Assembly (NCBI GenBank): GCA_016783455.1
Contig: JADHWN010000013.1
Span: forward strand, 1 to 50,067
DNA length: 50,067 nucleotides
Reading direction: 5' to 3'
From: Candidatus Bathyarchaeota archaeon
GTDB lineage: Archaea; Thermoproteota; Bathyarchaeia; TCS64
Part shown: one piece after another, positions 2,899 to 30,298 of the stretch
How the letters are laid out: each line of letters opens with the position of its first letter
How positions within the stretch are numbered: the first letter of the stretch is position 1
Made by a program: the position numbers and the translations under genes
Notes under the pieces: generated by a model
Seen by the model: the letters and a program-made list of their open reading frames with translations, nothing else
What the model was told of the DNA's origin: nothing
Database searches by the model: none

Positions 2899-3546
2899 AT
2901 GAAGATTATCGGTGTCAGTGCAGGCGTAGTCGGACATGACTCGAACATCGACCGTATGGTCAAGGCAATAATGGAGAAAAGCAGCGATGACCACGAGTTC
3001 ATAAAACTCAATGACCTCGACTATTCGGCATGTAAGGGCTGCTCATGGCTCTGTGCTAAGCCACAAATATGCACGCTAGAAGACGACCTTCAACCATACG
3101 TCCAGAAGGTAAGAGACGCCGACGCAGTCGTCCTGGGATCCCCCATCCACTTCAGGACAGTGAGCCCCACAATGTTAAGTTTCATATCACGCCTATGGGG
3201 TTTCAGACACGTGGACTACGTCTTAAAAGACAAACCATTCGCCCTCGCTCTCAGCGGGATCAATGCAGACAGAGGAACCCCTGAAGAGGATTTTAGGAGA
3301 GCGCTGAGTGTCTTCAAGGTGGATGTGCTGGATGTCATCAAGTACTCATCTAGGATACCTCCCTGCTATAGATGCGGCCGTCACCAGGAATGTGAGATCG
3401 GAGGAGCATACAGTCTATGGGGTGATAAAGCCCGTAGCTTAGTCATCAGACCTGAACTTTTCAATAGATGGGAAGACAACGAAGAGACCGTGAATAGAGT
3501 TGATGCTATAGTTGAGAAGCTCAAACAATCCGAAAACACAAGATGA
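2899..3546 (+). CDS. Flavodoxin-like NADPH-dependent FMN reductase / iron-sulfur flavoprotein
   Basis: A 215-residue protein. The N-terminus MKIIGVSAGVVGHDSNIDRM is the first beta strand and phosphate loop of the flavodoxin-like FMN reductase fold. CKGCSWLCAKPQIC carries a cluster of four cysteines in the position used by iron-sulfur flavoproteins. ADAVVLGSPIHFRTVSPTM is the FMN-binding segment usually written GxPxyxxxxs. A second Cys group, PPCYRCGRHQECEIGG, follows at the C-terminal side. It probably moves electrons between NAD(P)H or ferredoxin and an unknown acceptor. ATG 2899 is chosen over an upstream TTG because GAGGG at 2888-2892 precedes it. It has no obvious operon partner. Confidence 0.8.
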   Translation: MKIIGVSAGVVGHDSNIDRMVKAIMEKSSDDHEFIKLNDLDYSACKGCSWLCAKPQICTLEDDLQPYVQKVRDADAVVLGSPIHFRTVSPTMLSFISRLWGFRHVDYVLKDKPFALALSGINADRGTPEEDFRRALSVFKVDVLDVIKYSSRIPPCYRCGRHQECEIGGAYSLWGDKARSLVIRPELFNRWEDNEETVNRVDAIVEKLKQSENTR

Positions 3547-3634
3547 AAAAAAGATGTGGTGATTTCACCACTGCCCGCGCGAAGCATTATAAATTTCAAA
3601 AATATACTTTCACCATCGAAAGGAAGTATAAATT

Positions 3635-5512
3635 TTGAACCCACCTCGTGATGATTTCTCCAAAGATGTGGACACGCGCGGCACCGCGGACAGCGAGATC
3701 CCAGAAAAGTTCACACCAAAGACAGACAGCTTCGACTATATCCGCCGCGAGGAGATGATCCCGATGCGCGACGGCGTGAAGCTCAAGACCATAATACTCG
3801 TACCGAAGGAAGCGCAGGACGCCCCAATCGTGATTACACGCACGCCCTACAACGCCTCGGTGACCACGCTCCGCTTCAACAGCCCAAACCTCTCCTCAGT
3901 CGTACCCCAGATAAACGACACCACATCTGCAGCGCGCTACATCATCGTGTACCAGGATATACGCGGGAAATACGGCTCAGAGGGCGACTACGTGATGAAC
4001 AAGCCACCCACGGGGCCCCTGAACACGACCGGCACCGACCACTCAACAGATTGCTACGACACCATCGACTGGCTGGTGAAGAACGTGGCAGAGTCGAATG
4101 GCCGCGTAGCCGTGATAGGCGGATCCTACAAGGGCTTCACGACGCTGATGTCCACGATAAATCCGCACCCAGCGTTGAAGGCCGTGGTACCGTTCGCATC
4201 TATGGTAGACGGCTGGATCGGAGACGACTGGTTCCACTGGGGCGCGTTCCGCCAGGAGGTTGCGCTACCTTTCTTCTACAACCAGCAAGCGACACGCAAG
4301 AACGAGATCTTGTGGTGGTCCGACATGCCCGACACCTATGAAGCCTACCTACGTGCAGGCAACGCAGGTACGGTTGCATCCTCGCGCGGCATGGAGAGCA
4401 TCGGGTTCTGGCAGAAGCTAGCGGCGCACACGGCCTATGACTCCTTCTGGCAACAGCAAGCCGTAGATAAACTGCTCGCCGAACGTCCACTCACTGTACC
4501 TATGCTGATCGTCGGCGGACTCTTTGACGAACAGGACCAATACGGTTCACCGGCGGTCTACAAGGCGCTTGCACCCAAGGACCCTAACGGCAGGTTCATC
4601 CACTTAGTGCTCGGACCCTGGAACCACGCACAGGGGCGGCGCGAAGCGCGTAGCCTCGGCCTGCTACAGTTCGAGGGTGACACGGGCGGCTGGTTCAGGC
4701 GCAAGGTGATGCAGCCGTTCCTGGACCACTACCTGAGGGACGCTCCGAAACCAGAGACACCGCGCGTGCTCGTGTACGAGACCGGCGCGAATGTCTGGCA
4801 CCACTACGACGACTGGCCGCCTACGAATGCGCGTACGCGCAGTCTATATGTGCAGGAAGATGGGAAACTCGGCTTTGAAGCACCACCCGCCGCGAAGCAG
4901 GCATTCGACGAGTACGTGTCTGATCCTGCGAAGCCAGTGCCCTACAGGGAACGATCGTCGATACCGAAATACGCATCGGAGCCCACCCATGGCGAATGGC
5001 TTGTAGACGACCAACGCCACGCCGCCTCACGCACAGACGTGCTGGTCTGGACCACGGAGCCGCTAAAAAAGCCTGTGCGTGTCGCAGGCGAGCCCATAGC
5101 TAGGCTGTTCGCCTCGACAAGCGGCAGCGACTCTGACTGGGTCGTAAAGATCATCGACGTCTGGCCGGACGAGGTGCCCGAGAACCCCAAGCTAAGCGGC
5201 TGTCAGCAGATGCTTTCAGCCGACATCTTCCGTGGCCGGTATCGCGAGGATCTATCGGTTGCGAAACCGCTTGACCCCGGTAAGGTGCTGGAGTACCACA
5301 TCCCCTTGCCACATGTGAGCCACACCTTCCTGCCGGGTCACCGAATCATGGTGCAGGTGCAGTCAAGCTGGTTCCCACTCTACGACCGAAACCCGCAGAC
5401 CTTCGTGCCAAATATCATGTTTGCGCCGCCTGAGAGCTACCGGAAGGCGACGCAGCGCGTATGGCGGACGGCGGAGTTCCCGACAGCGATCGAGCTGCCC
5501 GTTATCTCGTAG
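3635..5512 (+). CDS. CocE/NonD-family alpha/beta hydrolase (X-Pro dipeptidyl-peptidase-like)
   Basis: A 625-residue cytoplasmic hydrolase without a signal peptide. The alpha/beta-hydrolase domain holds the nucleophile motif GGSYKG with Ser164, an Asp at about 298 (GGLFDEQDQYG) and His331 (LGPWNHAQG), giving a complete triad. YQDIRGKYGSEGDY is the hallmark motif of the S15/CocE family. The C-terminal third is the jelly-roll domain typical of CocE and X-Pro dipeptidyl peptidases. Substrates in the family are acyl esters, beta-lactams or Xaa-Pro peptides; which applies is unknown. TTG 3635 is chosen from AAAGGAAG at 3619-3626. Arginine is written mostly CGC/CGT here, while flanking genes favour AGG/AGA, so recent transfer is likely. 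Confidence 0.85.
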   Translation: MNPPRDDFSKDVDTRGTADSEIPEKFTPKTDSFDYIRREEMIPMRDGVKLKTIILVPKEAQDAPIVITRTPYNASVTTLRFNSPNLSSVVPQINDTTSAARYIIVYQDIRGKYGSEGDYVMNKPPTGPLNTTGTDHSTDCYDTIDWLVKNVAESNGRVAVIGGSYKGFTTLMSTINPHPALKAVVPFASMVDGWIGDDWFHWGAFRQEVALPFFYNQQATRKNEILWWSDMPDTYEAYLRAGNAGTVASSRGMESIGFWQKLAAHTAYDSFWQQQAVDKLLAERPLTVPMLIVGGLFDEQDQYGSPAVYKALAPKDPNGRFIHLVLGPWNHAQGRREARSLGLLQFEGDTGGWFRRKVMQPFLDHYLRDAPKPETPRVLVYETGANVWHHYDDWPPTNARTRSLYVQEDGKLGFEAPPAAKQAFDEYVSDPAKPVPYRERSSIPKYASEPTHGEWLVDDQRHAASRTDVLVWTTEPLKKPVRVAGEPIARLFASTSGSDSDWVVKIIDVWPDEVPENPKLSGCQQMLSADIFRGRYREDLSVAKPLDPGKVLEYHIPLPHVSHTFLPGHRIMVQVQSSWFPLYDRNPQTFVPNIMFAPPESYRKATQRVWRTAEFPTAIELPVIS

Positions 5513-5579
5513 CGCATGCATTAACATGATAACATAATCTTGTGAGACATCATTTGATGATCTCTCATGATGCTGAGTA

Positions 5580-5589
5580 CGCGCGCGCG
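5580..5589. repeat. Alternating CG tract (CGCGCGCGCG)
   Basis: A ten-base alternating C-G run in the spacer between the CocE hydrolase and the amidohydrolase. Similar tracts occur in many other spacers of the window: 1854-1859, 2819-2824, 3576-3581, 6621-6631, 7940-7949, 10290-10297, 10326-10333, 11420-11427, 12466-12473, 17465-17473, 17767-17773, 24274-24282, 31471-31477, 32881-32886 and 32999-33004. The function is unknown. Confidence 0.7.
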
Positions 5590-5662
5590 ATGAAGAATTT
5601 CTTCTACATGTCTTGCGTGGAATACCTTTTGAGGAAGTTCATCTCTCATAAGCTGGAAAATA

Positions 5663-6604
5663 ATGAGAGACCCATGGAAGTACGCCGGCCCCATCTTCGA
5701 CGCCCACACACACATCGGATCAATCGAGAACACCTCCAAGATGATAGCCATCGAAGACGAATATAGCGTAACAAGACAGGTCGGAATCGTACACGACGAG
5801 GAAGGGTTCCAGCAGGCCAAGGAACAGTATCCGGGCAGGTTCGTCTACGCTAAGTACCTCTCCCTGAGGGACATAGCCCAGTACAACGTGGAACCCGTCC
5901 TCGACGAGATATCTAACCTGCTGGATCAGGGCTACTCAATCGCCAAGTCATGGTTCGGACCGCGTTGGCGCGACTTCATTGAGAACGTGCCAAGAGACTT
6001 CAGGATCAACCACTCCAAGCTGGACCCCATCTACGAGTCCCTCGAGGAGAATGACATCCCTCTCATTATCCACGTAAGCGACCCCGACACCTACTACGCG
6101 TCCCAGTACCGGGACTCCGAGAAATATGGACTCAAGGACGATCACCTCCAAGAGCTCGAGGACGTAATATCCCGACACAGCAAACTGCGGGTCCAGGTCC
6201 CCCACCTCGGGGCACAACCCGAGATACACCGGCTACCAGCCCTCTCCAGGTGGATGGACACATATCCGAACCTTGTGCTCGATACGGCATCGTCAAGGTG
6301 GATGGCCCGAGAGTTAAGCAAGGACCCAAAGAAGGCACGTGAGTTCATGCTTACGTACTCGAACAGAGTCCTCTTTGGGACTGATATCTTTAGTGGCAGA
6401 GGTGAACGTGACTATTTCTCAGGTCGGTATACTGCACAGAGAATCCTTTGGGAGACAGCTGAGCGAGATACGCCTCTCCCCATCCCTGATGCTGACACCG
6501 TGAACACTGGAGGAACTTTCATCAATGGCCAGGATCTGCCTCTTGACGTTCTCAGAAAGCTGTACTGGGAGAATTCAAATCGAATCTATCCCGCTAATAG
6601 TTAA
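5663..6604 (+). CDS. Amidohydrolase-2-family metal-dependent hydrolase
   Basis: A 313-residue TIM-barrel hydrolase. The metal site residues can be followed: DAHTH at residues 13-17 after strand 1, His in PLIIHVSDP after the middle strands, His in QVPHLGAQ, and the final Asp in FGTDIFSGRG. The family (amidohydrolase 2, including ACMSD-like decarboxylases and cyclic-ester hydrolases) works on amides, lactones or carboxylated rings; the substrate here is unknown. It lies 44 bases before the MFS transporter on the same strand, so uptake and hydrolysis of one compound is a fair guess. The ATG at 5663 is taken because the next Met (5673) would leave very little before the first strand. Confidence 0.8.
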   Translation: MRDPWKYAGPIFDAHTHIGSIENTSKMIAIEDEYSVTRQVGIVHDEEGFQQAKEQYPGRFVYAKYLSLRDIAQYNVEPVLDEISNLLDQGYSIAKSWFGPRWRDFIENVPRDFRINHSKLDPIYESLEENDIPLIIHVSDPDTYYASQYRDSEKYGLKDDHLQELEDVISRHSKLRVQVPHLGAQPEIHRLPALSRWMDTYPNLVLDTASSRWMARELSKDPKKAREFMLTYSNRVLFGTDIFSGRGERDYFSGRYTAQRILWETAERDTPLPIPDADTVNTGGTFINGQDLPLDVLRKLYWENSNRIYPANS

Positions 6605-6648
6605 GGCAAGAATAGACTGTCGCGTGCGCGCACCTGGATGAATGAGAA

Positions 6649-7935
6649 ATGGAAATACTCCACGACATGGTGGCTTTCTGGAAAAGGCAGAAAGAAAATT
6701 TCAAAGTCTTGATAACCCGGGATTCCCTCAGGATGCTTTCTGGGAGAAAAATAGTTGGGCGTACCAGGGCAGTAGTAGGATATGAATCAATATTTCTCAG
6801 TCGATTGGGCGCAAACTCGATTCAAATAGGCATAGTAAGCGGAGCCATGTCCCTGTTGAACGTCCTATTCGCAGTGCCTGCTGGAACGATAATAGACCGA
6901 GTGAAAAATGTCAGGAATTTATACTTGATGAGTTTTGCGTTTGGACTCCCCAACCTACTCCTATTAGCTCTTGCCCCCAATTGGCTTTCTTTTCTCCTAA
7001 TAATGTTAGGGCAGACTCTCGTCCTAACCATTCAGATGCCCACAAAGACGATTATAGACATCGACGCGATCAATGACGAAGATCGTGTCGTAGGTTTATC
7101 CATTCACAGAATGATCACCGCAATAGCGGGTGTTGGCTCCCCGCTACTCCTAGCATACATAATAAATTATTATGGAGGATTGGGCTCCGCGAATGCCATC
7201 AGGCCTATCTTCCTTCTACAGTTCGTTAGTGAAATAATAATATTCATAGTCCTTTACACTAAATTAGAGAATGTCTTCATAGAGAAAAAAGTTGGAAGAG
7301 AGAGCCTCGTGGAAGGTTTGAAGTTAATCTTGGCCGGGCCAGTCCCACTAAAGCTAATTCTGGTAAGGGATGTCGCGACCATGTTCGTAATGGGAATGTC
7401 CAATCCATTTCGAGGAATCTATCAGGTTGACGTTAAAATGGCCACCGTTTTCATTTTTGGCTGGATCGGAGTAGCTGAACCGGCTATAGATATCCTTCTT
7501 TCCATTCCGGCAGGTAAACTCATCGAGAAATATGGGAGAAGAAAAGTGGGATATGCCGGCCATATTGTAGGAATCATAGCCCGATTACTCCTCGTGCTGA
7601 CCCCCAGATCATTTCCCGAATTACTCATACTAATGACAGCTCTTGGCTCCTTGGAGGGCTGCCTCTACCTTGGCTTTGACGCTTATGGCCAGGAAATTAT
7701 CCCACAAGATATAAGAGGTAAGTGGATGGGAGTCCTCGCAGTCATCACAGGTGTAATTGGTGTAGTCGCTCCAGTTATTGGTGGATTCATCTGGAGGTTA
7801 AACCCGGACTATCTCTTCTGGCTTAACGTTATTCAGTGGACCTTCGTGGCCTTCCCCATCATGATAATCTTGATAGAAAAATATTCGATAGATGGAAGGA
7901 ATAGGACGCCAGCGCTCGGAAATATTAAGCGGTGA
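6649..7935 (+). CDS. MFS transporter
   Basis: A 428-residue integral membrane protein with about twelve hydrophobic helices in two halves. Between helices 2 and 3 the loop GTIIDRVKNVRN fits the conserved MFS loop, and AGKLIEKYGRRKVGYAG is its repeat in the second half. A central charged loop (YTKLENVFIEKKVGRES) separates the halves. The family exchanges small solutes or drugs using ion gradients; the substrate is not predictable. It stands between an amidohydrolase and a small zinc-ribbon gene on the same strand. A CG tract (7940-7949) starts five bases after its stop. The start is ATG 6649; a later in-frame Met (MVAFWKRQKENF) is possible. Confidence 0.85.
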   Translation: MEILHDMVAFWKRQKENFKVLITRDSLRMLSGRKIVGRTRAVVGYESIFLSRLGANSIQIGIVSGAMSLLNVLFAVPAGTIIDRVKNVRNLYLMSFAFGLPNLLLLALAPNWLSFLLIMLGQTLVLTIQMPTKTIIDIDAINDEDRVVGLSIHRMITAIAGVGSPLLLAYIINYYGGLGSANAIRPIFLLQFVSEIIIFIVLYTKLENVFIEKKVGRESLVEGLKLILAGPVPLKLILVRDVATMFVMGMSNPFRGIYQVDVKMATVFIFGWIGVAEPAIDILLSIPAGKLIEKYGRRKVGYAGHIVGIIARLLLVLTPRSFPELLILMTALGSLEGCLYLGFDAYGQEIIPQDIRGKWMGVLAVITGVIGVVAPVIGGFIWRLNPDYLFWLNVIQWTFVAFPIMIILIEKYSIDGRNRTPALGNIKR

Positions 7936-7968
7936 TGTACGCGCGCGCGTCTGAGTAAGGGCCAAGAA

Positions 7969-8121
7969 GTGGTCCGAATATTCTGTCCATCCTGTGGTCC
8001 ACAGGAGCCATATACAGCTGAGGACTTCGACAAGCACGTGGTGTTCCTAGTGAAACCCGACAGGACAAAGGCACTTACATGCCCGAAATGCAAGACCAGA
8101 TTCAACGTATTGGTGAGATAA
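7969..8121 (+). CDS. Small zinc-ribbon protein
   Basis: A 50-residue protein. It has two Cys pairs: IFCPSCGPQ near the start and LTCPKCKTRF near the end, separated by about 30 residues including FDKHVVFLVKPDRTKA. This is the spacing of a small treble-clef or rubredoxin-like zinc ribbon, probably binding nucleic acid or a protein partner. The start is taken as GTG 7969; the frame stays open back to the MFS stop, and a CTG at 7951 is a weaker alternative. It follows the MFS gene by 33 bases. No function can be given beyond zinc binding. Confidence 0.55.
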   Translation: MVRIFCPSCGPQEPYTAEDFDKHVVFLVKPDRTKALTCPKCKTRFNVLVR

Positions 8122-8206
8122 CTGAATTGCGGGCGATGAATACATAAAATAGCTTCTAAACGAAAATTCGTGTAAACCTAAATAATGAATCAAGTTCAGC
8201 TTCTTA

Positions 8207-8449
8207 ATGTCAATTGAAAGGCTTGGATATAATACAAACGTACAAGAAAACCTGGACGAGCATAACTTAAGGAATTTAATCCATTTCTATGAAGCAGAGC
8301 TTCGAAGTATCATGAGCGGAGAATCCCCCTGTGAAGTTCTAAGCTACAACATACGTCGCAAGTTCAGACGATTACGTGTTTTTAGAGATAGAAGGGGTTC
8401 GAATCAACTTTCAGAAAAGACACTTCATATTCTTAAAAGCGGATCCTAA
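8207..8449 (+). CDS. Small hypothetical protein, AT-rich
   Basis: An 80-residue protein, not recognised. It looks helical, with a basic centre (NIRRKFRRLRVFRDRRGSNQ) that could contact nucleic acid. Base composition is more AT-rich than its neighbours. The ATG at 8207 follows TAAACCTAAATAATG at 8174-8188, which could serve as a TATA region. It converges with the winged-helix gene at 8455 with only five bases between stops. It might be a real small gene or a chance frame; codon use gives no strong signal either way. Confidence 0.4.
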   Translation: MSIERLGYNTNVQENLDEHNLRNLIHFYEAELRSIMSGESPCEVLSYNIRRKFRRLRVFRDRRGSNQLSEKTLHILKSGS

Positions 8450-8454
8450 ATAAA

Positions 8455-8748
8455 TTAAATAGTGACCGCTGTCTTCTCTCGCAGCTGCTTCGACCTGTCG
8501 AACTCCTCGTAGAAGTTCCACTTCGACGTGAACTCGTCGTACTCCTCCACGAACCTGACTCCCCGGGGCGTCGTCACCAGCATCCTACCCTTATCCTCGA
8601 TGAGCCCCATCCTGAACAGGACGTTGAGATACCTCCTCAACATCGAGAAATTAATGTTCGTAAGGTACACCAGACGCGTCCTCTTGACCCCCTCCTGAGC
8701 CAGGCTGAGGATCTCGAAGATGACGTCAAGCTTGTGGCGCCTACCCAT
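8455..8748 (-). CDS. Winged-helix transcriptional regulator (ArnR1-like)
   Basis: A 97-residue single-domain DNA-binding protein. HKLDVIFEILSLAQEGVKRT forms helix 1-2, TNINFSMLRRYLNVLFRMGL is the helix-turn-helix with recognition helix, and IEDKGRMLVTTPRGVRFVEE is the beta wing and following helix. This layout (a 'TxxGxxFLEEY' wing end) is common in small archaeal winged-helix regulators. It has no sensor domain. It sits upstream of, and divergent from, the FAD oxidoreductase gene and may control it or itself. The start is ATG at 8748. Confidence 0.75.
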   Translation of the reverse strand: MGRRHKLDVIFEILSLAQEGVKRTRLVYLTNINFSMLRRYLNVLFRMGLIEDKGRMLVTTPRGVRFVEEYDEFTSKWNFYEEFDRSKQLREKTAVTI

Positions 8749-9004
8749 CCCAGCAAAGTCTACGAAAATCGGCTAATAAATCATTAAGAAGGATAGTGCC
8801 GTACCCGCCCTTCGGAGCAGAATTACTGATCCCAAGCGTAAAATGGTACCATTCCACTCGCACACGATCAAAAGGGAGCCCCTGAGAGCCATCGCGGGAT
8901 CCGCATGGCTACCGGTCCGAGATAAATCCACCACGACTCAGCTGGACTAACCATTCCACATGGGAAATATTATAGACGCAAACCATCATTCATCTGTCAA
9001 CGCC

Positions 9005-10282
9005 ATGTACCTAGACATCCTGGTGATCGGAGCTGGGGCCATAGGCCTCAGCTCAGCCCTCCACCTGAAGAGGCTCAACCCCGAGAAGAGCGTAATGGTC
9101 GTCGACATGCTCGGCGGACCCGGCCAGGGAAACACCGCCAAGTGCGCGGGCATCTTCCTTAACCTCGCCACCACCGAGCTCAACTTCGGCCTCTCCGACT
9201 CCACCATCGACTGGTTCCACCACCTCCAGGGGGACCTGGGCCACAACCTGGGCCTCACACCGTATGGCTACCTCTACCTCTTGGACAAAGACCGCTACGA
9301 GAAGGTGAAGAAACCAATCGAGGAGGCCCGCAGCGTCGGCGTCGACATCAAGACCTATGAGAAGAATGAAGTGGAGCGCCTGCTACCAGACCTAGCCACC
9401 AGGTTCGGCGAGGAGGAGACTGAGCTCATGGGCCTCAAGCCCGTGGAGGTCGGTGTCCTCACGGAAAAGTGCGGGAGCATAGACGCAGACGGCCTCACCC
9501 GAAGCCTGGAAGTAGAGTTCCTGAAGCTTGGCGGCGAGGTGAGCTACAACACGACAGCCGAGAGCCTAATCGTTAAGCCCAGGAACGAGATTGGCATAGA
9601 AGGGGAGCCCTTCGTCTGGCAGGACATACACATCACAGGCGCCGAGACCAGTAAAGGCGAGATCCAGGCGGGGACGACCGTGGTGGCCGCCGGCACCTGG
9701 TCAGAGAGGCTGCTGGACCCCATCGGCTTCGACACACTGATGAGGCCCAAGAGCCGGTCCATCTTCGTCTTCAAGGACCCCAAGCTCGACAGGCTCCGGG
9801 ACACCCGAGGATTCAGCAAGGTGGATCTCCTCCCCTTCACCCACATCCCGGAGATCAGCGTCTACCTCAAGGTGGAGCCCTCCGAGGGCAGCATCTGGCT
9901 GGGCTGCGCAGACGACTTCGGCAGGCGCTACGGCCTCGAGGACGACCCCCAACCCGAGCGGGGGCTGTACGAGGACGACATCTACCACGCCCTGATGAAG
10001 TACCTCCCCTGTTTCAAGGACCTGAGGCCGCTGAACTCGTGGACCGGCCAGAGGGCCATGAACAGACTGGACAAGACGCCAGTGATCGCCCCGGCCCCCG
10101 GGATGATCTACGTCGGCTCCGCCACCGGCTACGGGGTGACGAAATGCGACGCCCTGGGGAGGACTGTGGCCGCGGCATACGCCGGGGAAGAGGAGGCGGA
10201 GCTCTACGGGGGCCGACGAATCAGGGTCGCGGACATTGGCATAGAGAACCGCAAGAAGGTGAAAGAAACCTTCAAAGTCTAG
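9005..10282 (+). CDS. FAD-dependent oxidoreductase of the DAO family (glycine/sarcosine-oxidase-like)
   Basis: A 425-residue flavoprotein. The N-terminus DILVIGAGAIGLSSALHLKR is the FAD-binding GxGxxG motif. The middle contains the DAO-family substrate domain with GTTVVAAGTWSERLLDP, and the C-terminus WTGQRAMNRLDKTPVIAP and YVGSATGYGVTKCDALG closes the FAD site. Relatives oxidise sarcosine, glycine, dimethylglycine, D-amino acids or glycerol-3-phosphate; the substrate is open. ATG 9005 is chosen because family members start just before the first strand; ATG 8960 in the same frame would add 15 residues. It stands before a ureohydrolase and a methylamine-methyltransferase-like cluster, so an N-methyl amino acid is an attractive but unproven substrate. 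Confidence 0.75.
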   Translation: MYLDILVIGAGAIGLSSALHLKRLNPEKSVMVVDMLGGPGQGNTAKCAGIFLNLATTELNFGLSDSTIDWFHHLQGDLGHNLGLTPYGYLYLLDKDRYEKVKKPIEEARSVGVDIKTYEKNEVERLLPDLATRFGEEETELMGLKPVEVGVLTEKCGSIDADGLTRSLEVEFLKLGGEVSYNTTAESLIVKPRNEIGIEGEPFVWQDIHITGAETSKGEIQAGTTVVAAGTWSERLLDPIGFDTLMRPKSRSIFVFKDPKLDRLRDTRGFSKVDLLPFTHIPEISVYLKVEPSEGSIWLGCADDFGRRYGLEDDPQPERGLYEDDIYHALMKYLPCFKDLRPLNSWTGQRAMNRLDKTPVIAPAPGMIYVGSATGYGVTKCDALGRTVAAAYAGEEEAELYGGRRIRVADIGIENRKKVKETFKV

Positions 10283-11437: not shown

Positions 11438-12394
11438 CTACCCTTCTGATGCCAGCTTCTTCTTGAGAGCGATGAGAGAGACGAACTCGTAGACTATATT
11501 CGCCCCTAACAGAGCCGTGACCTGGGACGGATCGTACTGGGGCAGGACCTCAACCAGGTCAAAGCCTACCAGGTTCAAATCCTTAAGCCCCCTCACGGCC
11601 TGCAGCGCCTCCCGGCTCGAGAAGCCCCCCACCTCGGGCGTACCAGTCCCCGGTGCGAACGCGGGGTCCACGAAGTCGATGTCAAAGGTGACGAACACCT
11701 TCTCATCCCCCACGCGATTGACTATCCTCTGTACTAGCTCCCCGATGCCCTGCTCCTGAGCCTCTACAGAGGTGACGAGCTCGAACCCCAGCTTCCTCGA
11801 GTCGTCGAGGCTGTCACGGGAGTAGATGGAGCCCCGCATACCGACCTGGATGGAATGGTCCACAAGCAACAGCTCCTCCTCGACCGCCCTCCTGAAAGGC
11901 GTCCCATGAGTGTACTTACGACCGAACCTTTTATCCCCCGTGTCAGAGTGCGAGTCGAACTGAATGAGGGCCACCGGCCCATGCACCTTATTCATCGCTC
12001 TGAGCTCCGGGAGCGTAACTGAGTGGTCTCCCCCGAGGAGTATCGGGATCACCCCACCCTCCAGAATGGGGAGGAGACCATCCTCAATCATCTGATACGA
12101 GTCCTCGACATAGCCAGGGTTGACAGGCAGATCACCCCAATCCACGACCGAGCAATGTTCGAAAATGCTCACGTCCAAAACCTCATTGTGGTGACGAAGC
12201 AGAGCAGAGACATTCCGGATGGCCTCAGGCCCAAACCGTGCACCAACCCTGTATGATGCCCCAGTGTCAAAGGGGACACCAACGATAGCGATGTCAACTC
12301 CCTCAGTCGTCTTGATATGAGGAAGACGCATGAACGTCTTGATGCCGGAGAACCTCGGGGATTCTCGGGGGTCAACAGGTCTATACCCCTCCAT
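11438..12394 (-). CDS. Ureohydrolase (agmatinase/guanidino-acid hydrolase family)
   Basis: A 318-residue dimanganese hydrolase that releases urea from a guanidino compound. Metal motifs are complete: GGDHS at 121-125, DSHSD at 147-151 (usually DAHxD, here Ser for Ala), THGTP with His163, and DIDFVDP at 238-244 followed by APGTGTPEVGG. Length and the GTGTPEVGG loop fit agmatinase-like members, but this family also contains guanidinobutyrase, guanidinopropionase and guanidine hydrolases, so the substrate is not fixed by sequence. It is transcribed in the same direction as, and downstream of, the first MtmB homologue. Hydrolysis of a methylated guanidine would give methylamine, which would connect it to that cluster. 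Confidence 0.85.
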   Translation of the reverse strand: MEGYRPVDPRESPRFSGIKTFMRLPHIKTTEGVDIAIVGVPFDTGASYRVGARFGPEAIRNVSALLRHHNEVLDVSIFEHCSVVDWGDLPVNPGYVEDSYQMIEDGLLPILEGGVIPILLGGDHSVTLPELRAMNKVHGPVALIQFDSHSDTGDKRFGRKYTHGTPFRRAVEEELLLVDHSIQVGMRGSIYSRDSLDDSRKLGFELVTSVEAQEQGIGELVQRIVNRVGDEKVFVTFDIDFVDPAFAPGTGTPEVGGFSSREALQAVRGLKDLNLVGFDLVEVLPQYDPSQVTALLGANIVYEFVSLIALKKKLASEG

Positions 12395-12497: not shown

Positions 12498-13880
12498 TTA
12501 CCATTGGAGCCCGCAGTCCTCGAACTCCTTCTTGACCCTTGCGATTAGTTCTTGATACTCTGGGCTTGGCTTATGACGTTGCAGGTCATAGCACTCAGTG
12601 ATCAACTTACCGGGCTCCGGAGTCGTGTTCGTCATGAGTTTTGTGATAACTGGCTTGAACATCCCATACACATCATCACGTTTGACCCCCGATCTAATGG
12701 CCGCGTCCGAAGCCTCGATCATCAACTCGGCGTCCGCCGGAGTCTGCCCACCGTTCATACGACTGCGACTGACACGGGGAACATACAGGTTGGCACCGTT
12801 AACAGTCGCCTCAATGCTCCGCAACACCAACTCCTCAAGATGGCTCTCCGTGCAGAGCTCCGAGACCGGGATGGGCCAATGCATCGGAATCCCATCCGAG
12901 TTCCTGATGGTAGCCTGGTAGACGACGGAACGAGCGAAATGAATGGGAAACATAATCCGCTTACCCCCGCTGACATGGGTGAAGTGCTCCACGCCGTTAT
13001 AGTAGAGGTTATCCCGATAGACGATCCACGCAATGATCGTCTTCACCAAACTCTCAATGATAGCCCCCTCCGGGCCCCCCGCGAAACCTCCAGCGATGCC
13101 GAAGCTGCCGCTGATCCCGAAATAGCCATAGCTCTGATACACGAGTGCCGCCGTGATCAGGTCATACTGCACCTTGACATCGGGCAGCACGGAGAGGAGG
13201 AGCCCATCCGTCGGCCTCAGCCCCGCATCCGGGTCAATCGCAGCGAGAAACGATGAAGCAGCGGTACTGATAGGATAAAGCACTATGGCGGCGCCGGGCC
13301 TCCCCGCCTTCCTGACGCCCTCCCTCACCCAAGCCACCTGACGCTTAGACGCGTAGGCCTCAAGGGGAATCCCGTAGATGTCATACCCGTCGATCTTGGG
13401 GAAGTTGAATCCCTCAAGGAAGTCGAGCCGCGGGATCATAGCAAAGTTCTCAACGACACTGTTCGCTAGATCCTCCGTGAAAGGCGCGTGATGCCCCGGG
13501 GCAACGTTCATGGGCTCAGTGCCCTCGATCTCATGCTGCCTCCACACACGAGCATCCTCCCCCTCGCCCATCACGACCTCCTTCTGCATCGAATGAATGG
13601 CTTCCCTGACCTCCTCCTCGGAGAACCTTACCACCCGCTCCCTGTCCAGACAGAAGCACCCAACGTCGACGACGAAATCCACGGCCGCCTGCCAGGCAGC
13701 GTCAGCCAGTCTGTCGTCGGTGTTGATCCAGACCGAAGGATCATCGGGACACTTGATCTCGTACTCCTTCACCAGCTCAGACATCTTCTTGAAGAGAGCC
13801 ATATCCCAGTCCTTCCCGGACATCATCGGACCCGTCCGCATCCGATCCGCGATCTCAACGAGGCTAATCATACTCCCCAC
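12498..13880 (-). CDS. MtmB-family corrinoid-dependent methyltransferase lacking pyrrolysine (paralogue 1)
   Basis: A 460-residue homologue of methanogen monomethylamine methyltransferase MtmB, of the same length and collinear. From the family: MtmB is a TIM barrel with pyrrolysine at about residue 202 in a GRPGMxV-Pyl context. Here the segment is KAGRPGAAIVLYPIS, so Val200 takes the Pyl place and no stop codon occurs there. Other shared segments are IAGGFAGGPEGAIIESLVKT and the end ECYDLQRHKPSPEYQELIAR. It is the most divergent of the three copies. It is divergently transcribed from the corrinoid protein across 77 bases. It probably transfers a methyl group from an unknown donor to that protein. 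Start ATG 13880; Met4 is an alternative. Confidence 0.85.
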   Translation of the reverse strand: MGSMISLVEIADRMRTGPMMSGKDWDMALFKKMSELVKEYEIKCPDDPSVWINTDDRLADAAWQAAVDFVVDVGCFCLDRERVVRFSEEEVREAIHSMQKEVVMGEGEDARVWRQHEIEGTEPMNVAPGHHAPFTEDLANSVVENFAMIPRLDFLEGFNFPKIDGYDIYGIPLEAYASKRQVAWVREGVRKAGRPGAAIVLYPISTAASSFLAAIDPDAGLRPTDGLLLSVLPDVKVQYDLITAALVYQSYGYFGISGSFGIAGGFAGGPEGAIIESLVKTIIAWIVYRDNLYYNGVEHFTHVSGGKRIMFPIHFARSVVYQATIRNSDGIPMHWPIPVSELCTESHLEELVLRSIEATVNGANLYVPRVSRSRMNGGQTPADAELMIEASDAAIRSGVKRDDVYGMFKPVITKLMTNTTPEPGKLITECYDLQRHKPSPEYQELIARVKKEFEDCGLQW

Positions 13881-13957
13881 ACCAACACCCCGGCAAACCC
13901 CTCAGATAATTAAACTTACATGTAGACATCCACATATTTAGGCTTCAGTGGTAATAA
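13881..13957. promoter_or_regulatory. Divergent promoter of the MtmB/MtmC-like cluster
   Basis: The 77-base spacer separates the minus-strand MtmB homologue from the plus-strand corrinoid gene. On the minus strand AGTTTAATTAT (13906-13916) lies about 30 bases before ATG 13880. On the plus strand CACATATTTAGG (13931-13942) lies about 20 bases before TTG 13958. Both look leaderless. A shared regulator could act on both sides, but no clear operator repeat is visible. Confidence 0.5.
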
Positions 13958-14611
13958 TTGACCAAAGAAGAGGAGATTCTCCAAAACCTCTCCGATGCCG
14001 TACAATCTTTCGACTCCGACGCCGCCATCGACGCCGCGAAAGCCTCGGTCGAGGCAAAGATTAGCCCCGTCAAGGCCATCGAAGAGGGCCTCGCAAAGGG
14101 CCTCAGAGTGGTCGGAGACAAATTCGAAGCCGGAGAGCTATGGCTCCCCCACCTGGTCCTAGGCGCGGAAGCCCTGGAGGCCGCCGTGAAGGTCCTGGAA
14201 GGGCATATGGCCATTGAGGACCTTGAGTCCACCAACCGCGGGACCATCGTCATAGGCACCGTCGAAGGTGACATACACGACCTGGGGCTACGTATCGTCG
14301 CATCGATGCTCAGGGCGAACGGCTTCAGAGTCTACGACATAGGCTGCGACGCCCGCACCCTGAACTTCATCGAGAAGGCGAAGGAGGTCAAGGCAGATAT
14401 TATCGCAGCCTCCTCCCTCATGACCACGACGATGCCCTTCATGAAGGACCTGGTCGAAGCCCTGGAGACTGCCGGAATCAGGGACCAGTACAAGGTCATG
14501 GTGGGAGGTGGACCCGTCACCGAGGAATGGGCGAAGGCCATCGGCGTCGACGGTTACGGCAAAGACGCAGCCGAGGCCGTTCGAGTCGCAAAGGAACTCG
14601 TAAAGAAATAA
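13958..14611 (+). CDS. MtmC-like corrinoid (B12-binding) methyltransferase protein
   Basis: A 217-residue protein, the usual length of MtmC/MtbC/MttC. Residues 1-90 are the helical cap. Residues 95-217 are the Rossmann B12 domain with EGDIHDLG (DxHxxG at 105-110), where His107 should be the lower cobalt ligand; then AASSLMTTTMP and KVMVGGGPVTEEWAKAIG complete the nucleotide-loop pocket. It should carry the methyl group from an MtmB-type enzyme to a second methyltransferase. It is followed by the two plus-strand MtmB homologues with a 12-base gap to the first. TTG 13958 is used; no Shine-Dalgarno is seen but the TATA box position fits. No reactivase (RamA) or MtbA-type acceptor is in the window. 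Confidence 0.9.
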   Translation: MTKEEEILQNLSDAVQSFDSDAAIDAAKASVEAKISPVKAIEEGLAKGLRVVGDKFEAGELWLPHLVLGAEALEAAVKVLEGHMAIEDLESTNRGTIVIGTVEGDIHDLGLRIVASMLRANGFRVYDIGCDARTLNFIEKAKEVKADIIAASSLMTTTMPFMKDLVEALETAGIRDQYKVMVGGGPVTEEWAKAIGVDGYGKDAAEAVRVAKELVKK

Positions 14612-14623
14612 GGAGTGAATGAT

Positions 14624-16033
14624 ATGGCCGCCCCGAGCCTCTGGGAAGTACTCGACAGAGCCTGCAACACCGGACCAGTCATGGCGACAAAGGACTTCGA
14701 CATGAAGATATTCAGCGTCGCCACCCGCCTCACCAAGGAATACGACATAAAATATGACCCCAAGACCCCGGTCACGATAGACGACAGCCTCGCCGACGAC
14801 GCCTGGAACGCCGGACTGCAACTATTCACGGAGGTCGGGGCATACTGCATGAACTCCAGCCGAGTCATAAAATTCGACGAGTCAGAGATCAAACAGGGCC
14901 TCAAGGAGCTGCGAGGCGAAGCGATAATCGGAGAGGGCTCCGAGAGAAGGATCCTGAAACTCAGGAAAGTGGAGGACAACAGCCCCCCCTCCATCGTCTG
15001 TGGCGGAGTCATCGAGAGCAACTTCCCGGAAGGCGAGAACTTCGTCAAACTCTACCAATCCATAGCCCAGGAACCCCTCATCGACGGCTTCTACGTGGGC
15101 CCCCCACTCCAATCCTCAGAGGGACGACTGGTACGCTCAGGGACACCCCTGGAGACCCACCTGGGCAGATCCATGGTCTCCTGGGTACGCGAAGCGATCA
15201 GGCGAGCAGGGAGACCCGGACTACACTTCATATCAGCATGCACATCTGCCATAGCAAACATAGCTGCAGCCGACCCCAACGAAGGCCTCCGGAGGTCAGA
15301 CGGAATAGTCTCCACCATAATGCCTGAACTGAAGACAGACTACGAGAACCTCAACAAGATAGTCTACAGCCACGACTACGGCTGCATAAAACACGTCTAC
15401 AACGGAGGGATGATCGGCGGCTGGGCAGGCGGACCAGAAGGCGCCCTGATAGTATCCATCGCCAACGCCATCATGGCCGTCATAGTCTACCAGATGAGCG
15501 TAGGCGCCTCATACCACGCACTAGGCTACCTCAGGGCCTCAACACCCAACTACAGCGCCTTCGTGACCCGCCCATGCCTCTGGGGTTCATCCATCGGCAG
15601 CCAGGCCCTCTCACGGAACACCAAGATAATCAACACGGCCGTCGCCATGACCAACGCCGGACCCGGCACGGAGATGCAGTTCCAGGAGATCGTAGCCGCC
15701 ATATGCGCCTCAATCCCCTGCGGTAGAGAAGGACTCAGCCAAGGAGCCAGAAGATTCAAGGTGGTCCCCCTGCTCGGCAGCGGGCTCGAGAACAGGTTCT
15801 GGGGGGAGGTCGGCCACGCCATGTCCAAGGTGAAACGCGACTTCGCTAACTCCCTCGCAGAGGAGATGCTCCAGAAATTCGAACACAGAATCACCAGGGA
15901 GTCAGACGGCGGCCCATTGGGCCACACACTCGACGAGATATACGACCTGAAGACTCTACAGCCGAGGAAGAGATTCCTCGATGTCTATGAAGGGGTGAAG
16001 AAGGAACTCGAGGACCTGGGCTTGGAGTTCTAG
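14624..16033 (+). CDS. MtmB-family methyltransferase lacking pyrrolysine (paralogue 2)
   Basis: A 469-residue MtmB homologue. The Pyl region reads RRAGRPGLHFISACTSA, placing Ile203 at the Pyl site. The glycine-rich segment IGGWAGGPEGALIVSIANAI and the end LKTLQPRKRFLDVYEG match the family, as does GPGTEMQFQEI (MtmB has a PCTEM-type segment here). AGGAGTG at 14611-14617 sits eight bases before ATG 14624, which decides that start over GTG 14615. It ends with TAG, so amber is used here as a normal stop. It is closely related to the next gene, with which it shares most motifs; the pair looks like a tandem duplication with divergence. The methyl donor is unknown. Confidence 0.88.
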   Translation: MAAPSLWEVLDRACNTGPVMATKDFDMKIFSVATRLTKEYDIKYDPKTPVTIDDSLADDAWNAGLQLFTEVGAYCMNSSRVIKFDESEIKQGLKELRGEAIIGEGSERRILKLRKVEDNSPPSIVCGGVIESNFPEGENFVKLYQSIAQEPLIDGFYVGPPLQSSEGRLVRSGTPLETHLGRSMVSWVREAIRRAGRPGLHFISACTSAIANIAAADPNEGLRRSDGIVSTIMPELKTDYENLNKIVYSHDYGCIKHVYNGGMIGGWAGGPEGALIVSIANAIMAVIVYQMSVGASYHALGYLRASTPNYSAFVTRPCLWGSSIGSQALSRNTKIINTAVAMTNAGPGTEMQFQEIVAAICASIPCGREGLSQGARRFKVVPLLGSGLENRFWGEVGHAMSKVKRDFANSLAEEMLQKFEHRITRESDGGPLGHTLDEIYDLKTLQPRKRFLDVYEGVKKELEDLGLEF

Positions 16034-16053
16034 CATCGGGAGATACAGACTGA

Positions 16054-17460
16054 ATGACTGCTCCAGACTTCTGGGAGGTCCTGAACCGGGCGATCAACAC
16101 AGGAGCGCAGACCCCCGTCAGAGACTTCGACATGAAGATATTCCACGAGGCGTCGAGGCTGGTCAAAGAACACGACATAAAATACGACCCTGAGGTCTAC
16201 GTGCCCAACGACGACAGCCTCGCCGACGACGTCTGGAATGCGGGTATCGAGCTATTCCTTGAGCTAGGCATGTACTGCATGAGCTCAAAACGCGTCATAA
16301 AATTCGAAGAATCCGAAGTGAAAGATGCCCTCAAAGATGTAAGCGACAGCGTCGAGATCGGGGAGGGCAGCGAGAAACGAACGGTGACACGGAGAGGAAT
16401 AGGCAGCACGAAGCCCCCAGTAATCGTCGGAGGCGTTATCGAGAGCGACTTCCCTGAGGGCGAGACCTTCATCAAGCTCTACCAGAGCATCGCGGAGGAT
16501 CCTCTCATCGACGGGCTGTACGTTGGCCCACCACTCCACACGTCCGAGGGCCATACCGTACGGATGGGCACCCCCCTGGCGCTCCACCTGGGAAGACGCA
16601 TGGCCTCATGGGCCCGTGAAGCCATACGGAGAGCGGGGAGACCTGGCCTCCACTTCGTCTCAGCCTGCCCCTCAGCCATCGCGGACATCGCCGCCTGTAA
16701 CCCCGAAGACGGCGTTAGGAAGTCCGATGGGCTCTTCATCTCAGTCACGGCAGAGCTCAAGACCGACTACGAGGCCCTCGGGAAGACCGCATACGCCCTC
16801 GACTACGGCTGCATCAGGGCGACACACGGAGGCTCCATCATCGGCGGCTGGGCCGGAGGACCGGAGGGCGCCGTCGTAGTGTCGATATCCGACTTCATCG
16901 CCTCCGTGATGGTCTACCAGCACAACCTCGACCCCGTCTACGGCGACCACGGCCTCACGAGGTGCCCCGGGCCAGTACCCATCTCAAGCGTAAACCCGGG
17001 GATGTGGGGCACGGAGCTCACAGGACAGGCGATAGCACGGAACTACAAGGGCCCCAATGGAAGGTTCTTCCTTACCGCCGCGGGCCCGGGCACGGAGATG
17101 CAGTTCCGGGAGGTCGCAGCACTATGCATCGCCAGCTTGGCCTCAGGACGAGACCTATTCTGCGGCGGTGGAATACGCAGGTACAAGGTAAAACCCATGC
17201 TGGGCAGCGCACTGGAAAATAAATTCCACGCTGAACTGGGGCACGCAGCAACGGGGATAAAGAGAGACGACGCCAACGAACTAGTGAAAACTATCGTCCA
17301 GAAATACGAGAAGAAGGTAACAAAAGATGGAGGCCCTTGGGGATTCACATTCGATGAGATGTATGACCTCGAAACACTGACTCCCAGACAGAAATTCATA
17401 GAACTCTATGACAAGATGAAGAATGAGATGAAGGACCTGGGCCTAGAATTCAAGTATTAG
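16054..17460 (+). CDS. MtmB-family methyltransferase lacking pyrrolysine (paralogue 3)
   Basis: A 468-residue MtmB homologue and tandem partner of the gene 20 bases upstream. The Pyl region is RRAGRPGLHFVSACPSA with Val202, exactly the MtmB Pyl position by numbering. IIGGWAGGPEGAVVVSISDF and AAGPGTEMQFREVAALC are conserved. It ends ...DLGLEFKY then TAG, again a normal amber stop. It shares the corrinoid partner at 13958 and is presumably co-transcribed with it. Compared with paralogue 2 the difference is mainly in the 100-120 and 310-340 regions, so the two may act on different methyl donors. A GGGAG at 16039-16043 precedes ATG 16054 by ten bases. Confidence 0.88.
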   Translation: MTAPDFWEVLNRAINTGAQTPVRDFDMKIFHEASRLVKEHDIKYDPEVYVPNDDSLADDVWNAGIELFLELGMYCMSSKRVIKFEESEVKDALKDVSDSVEIGEGSEKRTVTRRGIGSTKPPVIVGGVIESDFPEGETFIKLYQSIAEDPLIDGLYVGPPLHTSEGHTVRMGTPLALHLGRRMASWAREAIRRAGRPGLHFVSACPSAIADIAACNPEDGVRKSDGLFISVTAELKTDYEALGKTAYALDYGCIRATHGGSIIGGWAGGPEGAVVVSISDFIASVMVYQHNLDPVYGDHGLTRCPGPVPISSVNPGMWGTELTGQAIARNYKGPNGRFFLTAAGPGTEMQFREVAALCIASLASGRDLFCGGGIRRYKVKPMLGSALENKFHAELGHAATGIKRDDANELVKTIVQKYEKKVTKDGGPWGFTFDEMYDLETLTPRQKFIELYDKMKNEMKDLGLEFKY

Positions 17461-27870: not shown

Positions 27871-27994
27871 CCACATCAATCTAATTCTATGAAGTACCAA
27901 GTCCGAAATCTCAACCAAATTTTGAGTTCACCTCCTACGCAGCCTAGCATAATGGTTGAATTCGTCCAGCCGAGAGCCCTATTCTCAACTTGGG

Positions 27995-30298
27995 ATGGCT
28001 TACCGGGAAATAACTTATGGGGCTCCACTGCCGTTTCATGATCTAATGGACATCAAAGGCGGGGAGACGGGGTACGAGGCCCTGACGTATCAACGCCGGC
28101 TTGAGATGCTCAGAGCCAGGAAGCTGGAGCACGCCAAGAAAAAGGTGAAGCTCACGGGGCCCAGGGACGGCGACGAGCAGGGGAATATACCCCTGCCCTC
28201 GGAGCTCACGGAGGTAGTCGAAGCGGTGAACGGCTCCGGCGTCCTCGTCAAGACGGCGGTCCTCAAGGGCTTCAAGCCCGTAAGCAACCACCCCAGCGGC
28301 GGATTCTTCGGCCCCAGGGCCGTCGGCGAGAACTTCAGGCGGCTTCTGGGGGTCCACCCCACGTACAACGACCCCCTGAGCTCGATTGCCGGGGTCTACA
28401 TGGTCAGCTTCACCTCCTACAGGGACCCGAGCTGGAACCCGGACTTCGACTTCTCCCACCTCTACCGGGAGCAGGAGATGTACGGGATAGACCACGGCAT
28501 CGGGGGGCTCCAGCACTTCTGCCCCGACCTCAAGATCGGGCTGGACCTGGGCTGGGGGGGACTCCTCGAGAAAGTCAGACGCTTCCGGGAGGTGAACCTC
28601 GGGGCTGCAGAGTTCTACGCCGGCCTCGAGGAGGTGGTGTTGGGCATGCAAGACTGGATAAGGAGGCACGGAGAGGCTGCCCGGGAGATGGCCGAGGAAG
28701 AGGCCACCCCCCAGCTGAGGGAGAACCTATCAGCCATCGCGGAGACCTGCAGCCACCTCGCCTCCGAGCCCCCCCGTACATTCCGGGAGGCCTGCCAGTG
28801 GCTCACATTCTTCCAAGCGGCGGCGAAGATGTACAACGGCAGCGGCGAGTGGGGGCAGCTGGACGAGCTCCTGAGGCCATTCTACGAGAGGGACGTCGAG
28901 GCGGGGAGGCTCACCGATGAGGAGGCGGTCTTCCACACCGCCTGCCTCCTCCTCAGCGAGACCGCCTACATCCAGCTCGGAGGGCCTGACCCTCAGGGCC
29001 GCGACCTCACCAGCCCCGTCTCGTTCCTGGTCCTGGAGGCGGTCCACCGGCTGAAGACCCCTGCCAACATCGGCGTCAGGGTCGGGAGGAGCTTGGACCC
29101 CGGGCTCTTCCGGAGGGGAGTCGAGATACTACTGGAGGACAGGATGGGGTTCCCCAAGTTCATCGGCGACGACGCCGTCACCCTTGGCTTCACGAGGAAC
29201 GGCTACCCCGTCGAGGACGCCAGGGCCCGCATCTACGCGGGGTGCCACTGGCTGGCCATCCCAGGCCGCGAGTATAACATGATGGACCTTATCAAGATCG
29301 ACCTCGCCAAGGTGTTCGACATTGCTTTCAGGGGGATGATGGCGGACCCAGACGCGACCCCCAGCATCGCCGAGCTCTGGACCAGATTCGAGGGGCACCT
29401 GCGCCGGGCCGTCGAGGTGGTCGCCGAGGGCATCGACCTCCACCTGGAGCACATGCACGAGGTCTTCCCCGAGCTCTTTCTCGACCTCTTCTGCTACGGC
29501 CCCCTGGAGAAGGGGATGGACGTGAGCCAGGTGGGGGCGGTCGACTACACCGACATCGGCGTCGACGGGGCCTCCCTTGCCACCGCTGCTGACTCCTTCG
29601 CCGCCCTGGAGCAGAGGGTCGAGGCGGAGGGGCAGATGACCTGGTGGGAGGCGATGGAGCTCATCGAGGGGGACTGGGCCGGGCTCGAAGGTGAACGTGC
29701 GAGGCTGATGATGCGGAATATACCTCGCTTCGGGAGCGGGGGCTCATCCGCCGACGGGTGGGCTGAACGGATCTCCAGCACACTCACGAGACTGGTCACC
29801 GGGGCGCCCACGCCAGGAGGCATCCGCATGGTGCCCGGCCTCTTCTCATGGGCGAAGGTGGTGACCTACGGCAGGAGGCTGGGGGCGACCCCTGACGGGA
29901 GGCGGGCGGGTGCACCCCTCTCCCATGGCCCCAACCCCTCCCCGGGGTTCAACCGGGGGAAGGGGGGGACGCCGACCCAGATGGTGGCGGCGGTGGCGGC
30001 GGTCCAGCCGGGGTACGGGAACACCGCCCCCCTCCAGCTAGACTTGGACCCGTCGACGGGGGCGGACGGGGAGCTCGTCGACAACGTCATGGCGCTGATC
30101 TGGAGCCACTTCGATCTGGGGGGGACCCTGGTGAACATCAACGTGCTGGACAGGGAGACCCTCATCGACGCGCAGAGGGACCCCTCCAGGTTCCCCGACC
30201 TCATGGTGAGGGTGACGGGGTTCAGCGCTTACTTCGCCAGCCTCTCGGAGGAGATGCGCCAGTACGTGGTGGACCGACTCGTCGAGGGGGGCGGCTGA
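27995..30298 (+). CDS. Glycyl radical enzyme with unusual GCHW active-site motif
   Basis: A 767-residue glycyl radical enzyme. The radical Gly is in MVRVTGFSAYFASL (Gly742, 26 residues from the end). The active-site Cys is in YAGCHWLAIPGREY (Cys417). Most dehydratases, lyases and decarboxylases of this family have GCVE at this place, with Glu as a general base; here His-Trp replaces Val-Glu. The N-terminal region holds the usual ten-stranded barrel segments. It probably cleaves C-C, C-O, C-N or C-S bonds of an unknown substrate under strictly anoxic conditions. It overlaps the activase gene by one base (TGATG). The start is uncertain: 27956, 27995 or 28046. It is markedly GC-rich. Confidence 0.85.
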   Translation: MAYREITYGAPLPFHDLMDIKGGETGYEALTYQRRLEMLRARKLEHAKKKVKLTGPRDGDEQGNIPLPSELTEVVEAVNGSGVLVKTAVLKGFKPVSNHPSGGFFGPRAVGENFRRLLGVHPTYNDPLSSIAGVYMVSFTSYRDPSWNPDFDFSHLYREQEMYGIDHGIGGLQHFCPDLKIGLDLGWGGLLEKVRRFREVNLGAAEFYAGLEEVVLGMQDWIRRHGEAAREMAEEEATPQLRENLSAIAETCSHLASEPPRTFREACQWLTFFQAAAKMYNGSGEWGQLDELLRPFYERDVEAGRLTDEEAVFHTACLLLSETAYIQLGGPDPQGRDLTSPVSFLVLEAVHRLKTPANIGVRVGRSLDPGLFRRGVEILLEDRMGFPKFIGDDAVTLGFTRNGYPVEDARARIYAGCHWLAIPGREYNMMDLIKIDLAKVFDIAFRGMMADPDATPSIAELWTRFEGHLRRAVEVVAEGIDLHLEHMHEVFPELFLDLFCYGPLEKGMDVSQVGAVDYTDIGVDGASLATAADSFAALEQRVEAEGQMTWWEAMELIEGDWAGLEGERARLMMRNIPRFGSGGSSADGWAERISSTLTRLVTGAPTPGGIRMVPGLFSWAKVVTYGRRLGATPDGRRAGAPLSHGPNPSPGFNRGKGGTPTQMVAAVAAVQPGYGNTAPLQLDLDPSTGADGELVDNVMALIWSHFDLGGTLVNINVLDRETLIDAQRDPSRFPDLMVRVTGFSAYFASLSEEMRQYVVDRLVEGGG

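Follow-up and report, generated by a model that had tools for sequence, protein, structure and literature searches.

Three MtmB-family methyltransferases without pyrrolysine share a locus with one corrinoid protein in a Bathyarchaeial genome

Introduction

Can proteins of the MtmB family transfer methyl groups without pyrrolysine (Pyl), and from which donors? The question is raised by four genes in a 50,067-nucleotide stretch of Candidatus Bathyarchaeota DNA (contig JADHWN010000013.1, positions 1 to 50,067; hereafter the window), in which three MtmB homologues (B1, B2 and B3) surround the gene of one corrinoid protein (C). On balance, B1, B2 and B3 are probably Pyl-independent methyltransferases of the MtmB family that act on C, accept quaternary-amine donors and feed methyl groups into the Wood-Ljungdahl pathway.

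As early as 2010, MtmB homologues were noted that lack the amber codon and have a hydrophobic residue in place of Pyl (PMC2933860). Methanococcoides methylutens Q3c has a non-Pyl MtmB homologue, MtqB, which was reported in 2026 to demethylate tetramethylammonium and choline, with low monomethylamine activity; the same study left most non-Pyl members unassigned in a tree of 1,061 MtmBs with and without Pyl (PMC13044021). In Ca. Formimonas warabiya, the non-Pyl MtmB-superfamily protein Ga0180325_111810 was strongly induced by dichloromethane (PMC9768040). Methylamine-type methyltransferases, possibly linked to the Wood-Ljungdahl pathway, had also been proposed earlier for Bathyarchaeia (PMC8407382, PMC9635834, PMC11264602). 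An initial annotation of the window had stated that no characterised non-Pyl counterpart of MtmB was known; that claim of novelty is superseded by the demethylation of choline and tetramethylammonium shown for MtqB, and by the other two reports of non-Pyl homologues. The B1-C-B2-B3 cluster is a new member of an already known non-Pyl MtmB kind, and possibly a new methyl-donor system.

Gene cluster and pyrrolysine position

B1 (12498-13880, - strand) was divergent from C (13958-14611, + strand, TTG start), which was followed at close spacing on the + strand by B2 (14615-16033) and B3 (16054-17460). The 77 bp between B1 and C (13881-13957) presumably house both promoters. Full-length matches to PF05369 scored 170 bits for B1, 243 for B2 and 249 for B3, so far over the cut-off of 25 that chance matches can be dismissed. 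MtmB was the sole Pfam family matched by the three proteins, and no NCBIfam model named any of them. B2 and B3 were 57% identical. The arrangement first described, three full-length MtmB homologues around one corrinoid gene, was borne out by the open reading frames (ORFs), and the enzyme class of B1-B3 is assigned with high confidence.

C was a two-domain corrinoid protein (PF02310, PF02607) in which the D-x-H-x-x-G cobalt-ligand motif was present as DIHDLG. It exceeded the cut-off of TIGR02370, which covers methyltransferase-cognate corrinoid proteins in general (217.8 vs 215.3), and was below that of every substrate-specific corrinoid model (MtbC, 218.5 vs 350). Of the earlier description of C as an MtmC-like carrier, the corrinoid protein stands; the MtmC label is more specific than the data.

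The residue four positions after GRPG corresponded to Pyl202 of M. barkeri MtmB1, with the numbering recovered through a PDB match. This position was occupied by V200 (GTG) in B1, by Ile (ATA) in B2 and by V202 (GTC) in B3; the Ile of B2 is I203 counted from the ATG at 14624 and I206 counted from the GTG at 14615. No in-frame TAG preceded the own stop codon of B1, B2 or B3. The Val, Ile and Val read initially at the Pyl position, with no amber codon there, were thereby confirmed. Pyl-MtmBs are defined by an amber codon or Pyl at 202, and B1-B3 fell outside this definition; PylS was likewise not found above cut-off in the host genome, a draft Bathyarchaeia metagenome-assembled genome (MAG) of 2.19 Mb and 75% completeness.

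Predicted structure and substrate pocket

AlphaFold models of B1 and B3 (predicted local distance difference test scores of 92 and 88, respectively) had the MtmB-type TIM barrel. Template modelling (TM) scores were 0.88-0.92 against the MtmB structures 1nth, 1l2q and 1tv2 (0.91 for B1 against 1nth) and about 0.5 against MttB and MtgB structures. The 202-equivalent was in a barrel strand in both models (E198-201 in B1, E200-203 in B3), and Pyl202 of MtmB is also located in a barrel strand (PMC9842639).

The residues at the positions of MtmB1 E229, E259, Q333 and Y335 were L/G/W/I in B1, V/Y/V/M in B2 and F/H/F/L in B3. In MtmB1 these four are presumably the acidic or polar residues next to Pyl. 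Neither B1-B3 nor their orthologues had an acidic residue at any of the four positions, and pocket residues were conserved inside each of the three orthologue groups. All four MtmB1 residues were kept in a Pyl-containing Bathyarchaeial MtmB from another genome (G211). MtmB has been described as having an anionic cleft (PMC2933860). The pocket of B1-B3 appears uncharged and hydrophobic or aromatic, as expected for quaternary ammonium or neutral N-methyl donors, and the loss of the acidic and polar residues would disfavour monomethylamine as the donor.

Conservation and selection

The order and strands of B1, C, B2 and B3 were the same in one genome of the same genus (G233) and in two of the same family (G244, G247); in G255, B1, C and B2 were followed by the contig end. 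Orthologues of B2 were present in G233, G244, G247, G251 and G255, and orthologues of B3 in G233, G244 and G247, the G247 copy being frameshifted. Ratios of nonsynonymous to synonymous substitution (dN/dS) against G233 were 0.05-0.11 across the four genes (about 0.06 for B1), and the B1/C intergenic region had the same length (77 bp) and a nearly identical sequence in G233. The unit of B1 and C-B2(-B3) is under purifying selection in its family. MtmB genes of any kind were confined to 20 of the 257 Bathyarchaeia genomes, which gives the trait a patchy distribution in the class. A viral origin was rejected, as a search of IMG/VR returned no relative; plasmids returned none either.

A Pyl-containing allele in the same neighbourhood, set beforehand as the refuting observation, was not found. 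The sole amber codon among the cluster orthologues was a TAG for TGG at Trp269 of GGWAGG in the B2 orthologue of G233, and use of Pyl there was rejected, since this codon is not the Pyl position and PylS was not found. PylS was found neither in five related genomes of the family nor in any of its genomes that carry the cluster; the same search returned PylS above cut-off in two other Bathyarchaeia (G211 and G217), which served as a positive control. In all, stops at one and the same GG[W/Y]AGG codon were observed in two different MtmB homologues (TAG and TAA; L007:5645-7060 and L043:493-1863), and stops at this codon may represent MAG error or decay.

Host genome and proposed pathway

Second-methyltransferase and RamA-like activase genes were located outside the cluster, on contigs C22, C54 and C9. 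Contig C22 carried two further non-Pyl MtmB genes, each adjoining its own corrinoid protein gene, together with a RamA-like activase, a third corrinoid protein, MtrH and three MtaA/MtbA-like proteins. A separate group on contig C54 comprised a non-Pyl MttB, a corrinoid protein and MtrH. In total, the genome encoded two MtrH, two RamA-like and three MtaA/MtbA-like proteins, CdhC and Mch. No mcrA, and thus no methyl-coenzyme M reductase (MCR), was found in this 75% complete genome, and methane formation by the host is unlikely. Of the genome checks proposed in the initial annotation, those for PylS, not found, and for acceptor genes, present outside the cluster, supported it. With CdhC and Mch present, the tetrahydromethanopterin branch of the Wood-Ljungdahl pathway is open to methyl groups. 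On contig C22 (L006, 2061-5920), hydantoinase/oxoprolinase A and B genes were separated by about 2.3 kb from the MtmB cluster there, the second of the genome; N-methylhydantoin-type metabolism is conceivable.

In the pathway proposed, B1, B2 and B3 would share C as their corrinoid protein. The methylated compound would be bound at the mouth of the TIM barrel of each enzyme, and its methyl group would pass straight to the Co(I) of C without a Pyl adduct. The donors would most likely be pre-activated N-methyl compounds, that is, choline- or tetramethylammonium-type quaternary amines as for MtqB, rather than monomethylamine; this substrate class is a modest bet. Methyl-C would be demethylated by an MtrH-type or MtaA/MtbA-type second methyltransferase encoded on C22 or C54, and C would be kept as Co(I) by a RamA-like activase; the methyl group would enter the tetrahydromethanopterin branch for assimilation, acetogenesis or oxidation, and not for methane.

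Several points weigh against this pathway. The cluster has no acceptor, activase or transporter gene of its own and is tied to C22 and C54 only by their common genome. Missing genes are weak evidence in a MAG of this completeness. B1-B3 were likened to MtqB by its published description and not by sequence. The roles given to E229, E259, Q333 and Y335 are those of the structural literature on MtmB, the anionic cleft alone being confirmed (PMC2933860), and simple amines may still be accepted without that cleft, as MtqB itself has some monomethylamine activity.

Phylogeny and alternative explanations

The two Pyl-MtmBs formed one branch (support 100/100) in a tree of 76 proteins, and B1-B3 were placed apart from it, a point for which the initial annotation had advised building a tree. 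B2 and B3 formed a private Bathyarchaeial clade (100/100), and the clade of B1 included a protein from a Peptococcaceae bacterium. A joint grouping of B1 with B2/B3 was supported by only 83/67, and approximately unbiased tests rejected none of the alternative groupings tried (p = 0.26, 0.44 and 0.18).

Corrinoid genes adjoined most MtmB homologues in the other lineages examined, and a single corrinoid gene beside two or three divergent non-Pyl MtmBs recurred in archaea and bacteria. Paired loci were found in five Methanomethylicia (C-B-B), in Desulfurococcaceae (L025), in Peptococcaceae (L022; C with a B3-like and a B1-like gene) and, within Bathyarchaeia, in G211, G025, G043, G216 and the window. 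This recurrence suggests an alternative in which the B1-type and B2/B3-type enzymes are partners on one carrier, either in a mixed oligomer or in two successive demethylation steps. The tandem genes of Methanomethylicia and L025 fell in two separate clades, and MtmB is a D3 homohexamer (PMC9842639), which makes mixed hexamers conceivable. However, about half of the loci examined had a single MtmB (e.g., L020, L024, L027 and L033), and the grouping of B1 with B2/B3 had a support of only 83/67; partnership is possible, with the odds leaning against it.

In L020, L021 and L083, the order C-B-MtrH-RamA placed acceptor and activase directly in the locus. A B3-like MtmB, a corrinoid protein and a non-Pyl MttB stood in a row in L070 (G033, 3053-9473), with a glycine-cleavage P-protein-like gene nearby, hinting at betaine or glycine breakdown. 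One contig of an Acidimicrobiia bacterium (L026, G270) carried 11 MtmB-family matches, none with an internal stop. The genomes positive for PylS, G211 and G217, contained loci L037, L085 and L086; in G211, a genuine Pyl-MtmB whose codon 202 is TAG (L037, G211:C1:354100-355452) occurred alongside at least five non-Pyl MtmBs.

The flank of B1 varied. In the window, B1 was followed on the same strand by an agmatinase-type ureohydrolase (11438-12394, - strand; TIGR01230 and NF002564 above cut-off), and in G247 (L009) by an acetamidase/formamidase-family gene; other genes were present in G255. These hydrolases, with the uncharged, hydrophobic or aromatic pocket, suggest that B1-B3 might demethylate N-methyl amides or guanidines, the product then being cleaved by the hydrolase 3' of B1. 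The hydrolase differed between genera, though; the agmatinase was separated from B1 by another ORF in G233 and was not beside B1 in G247 or G255, and in G255 no such hydrolase of either kind adjoined B1. With two data points only behind it, the amide or guanidine proposal is unlikely. The agmatinase-type protein is possibly part of the B1-C-B2-B3 system, with the link restricted to the genus. An operon with the agmatinase or with a flavin adenine dinucleotide (FAD)-dependent oxidoreductase was rejected, as the flanks were not conserved beyond the genus; the oxidoreductase (8960-10282), distantly similar to the sarcosine oxidase beta subunit, was near the cluster and not conserved with it.

Monomethylamine itself was considered as the donor, B1-B3 then being Pyl-independent monomethylamine methyltransferases. 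All five Methanomethylicia genomes examined (L011, L012, L013, L015 and L016) had exactly two MtmBs, in tandem after one corrinoid gene and both non-Pyl, and PylS above cut-off was found in none of the five. A cultured member of the class makes methane from monomethylamine and does not use di- or trimethylamine or betaine (PMC12244365), so Pyl-independent methylamine demethylation is predicted in Methanomethylicia, although the five genomes do not include that of the cultured M. petrocarbonis. The low monomethylamine activity of MtqB points the same way. For B1-B3 this donor is nonetheless quite improbable: the D333 and W/Y335 retained in Methanomethylicia MtmBs are both missing from them, and the clades differ.

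The Trp269 stop in the B2 of G233 and the frameshift in the B3 of G247 might suggest that B1-B3 are what is left of a Pyl system in decay. This is very hard to credit given the low dN/dS ratios, the intact frames of the window, the pocket residues conserved per orthologue group and a B1-B3 group that does not branch from Pyl-MtmB; isolated lesions in draft MAGs may also stem from errors in sequencing.

Elsewhere in the window, a PFL-family glycyl radical enzyme and its radical SAM activase (27956-31206) were below all substrate-specific cut-offs, including that of CutC, and no tRNA was found.

Significance and comparison with known systems

Non-Pyl MtmB homologues are numerous, and a donor has been assigned for only one. 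The present cluster is not the first of them, but it is conserved and belongs to a non-methanogen. Bathyarchaeia are abundant sediment archaea, and a three-to-one cluster in a member without MCR found would suggest that non-methanogens draw carbon from methylated compounds. A more speculative reading, advanced tentatively, is that a B1-type and B2/B3-type pair on one carrier makes up a separate MtmB subsystem independent of Pyl. Such a pair would supply the archaeal Wood-Ljungdahl pathway with methyl groups from an unrecognised donor, and its design would also underlie Pyl-free monomethylamine use in Methanomethylicia. The paired architecture offers a test of MtmB-type methylamine handling without pyrrolysine and bears on why pyrrolysine exists; the shared carrier with paired enzymes is the part most worth testing.

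B1-B3 resembled M. barkeri MtmB1/MtmC (1nth, 1l2q, 1tv2) in fold (TM about 0.9), length, the strand of residue 202 and the corrinoid partner, but differed in having no Pyl, in an identity of about 26-30% and in the replacement of E229, E259, Q333 and Y335; their donor is not expected to be monomethylamine. The lack of Pyl is shared with the non-Pyl MttB family (MtgB and relatives), and three-component corrinoid methyl transfer with quaternary amines as donors presumably is too, but that family is a different one (TM only about 0.5), of which the host has its own member on C54. The function of Ga0180325_111810, a non-Pyl MtmB homologue like B1-B3, is likewise unsettled, but the protein is bacterial and induced by dichloromethane. 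MtqB/MtqC belongs to a methanogen, with a coenzyme M/MCR sink and one MtqB gene, whereas the Bathyarchaeial cluster has three enzymes per carrier in a genome with no MCR found and with MtrH-type acceptors; both combine non-Pyl MtmB homologues, free of amber codons, with a neighbouring corrinoid protein, which in MtqC is annotated as a dimethylamine (MtbC-like) one.

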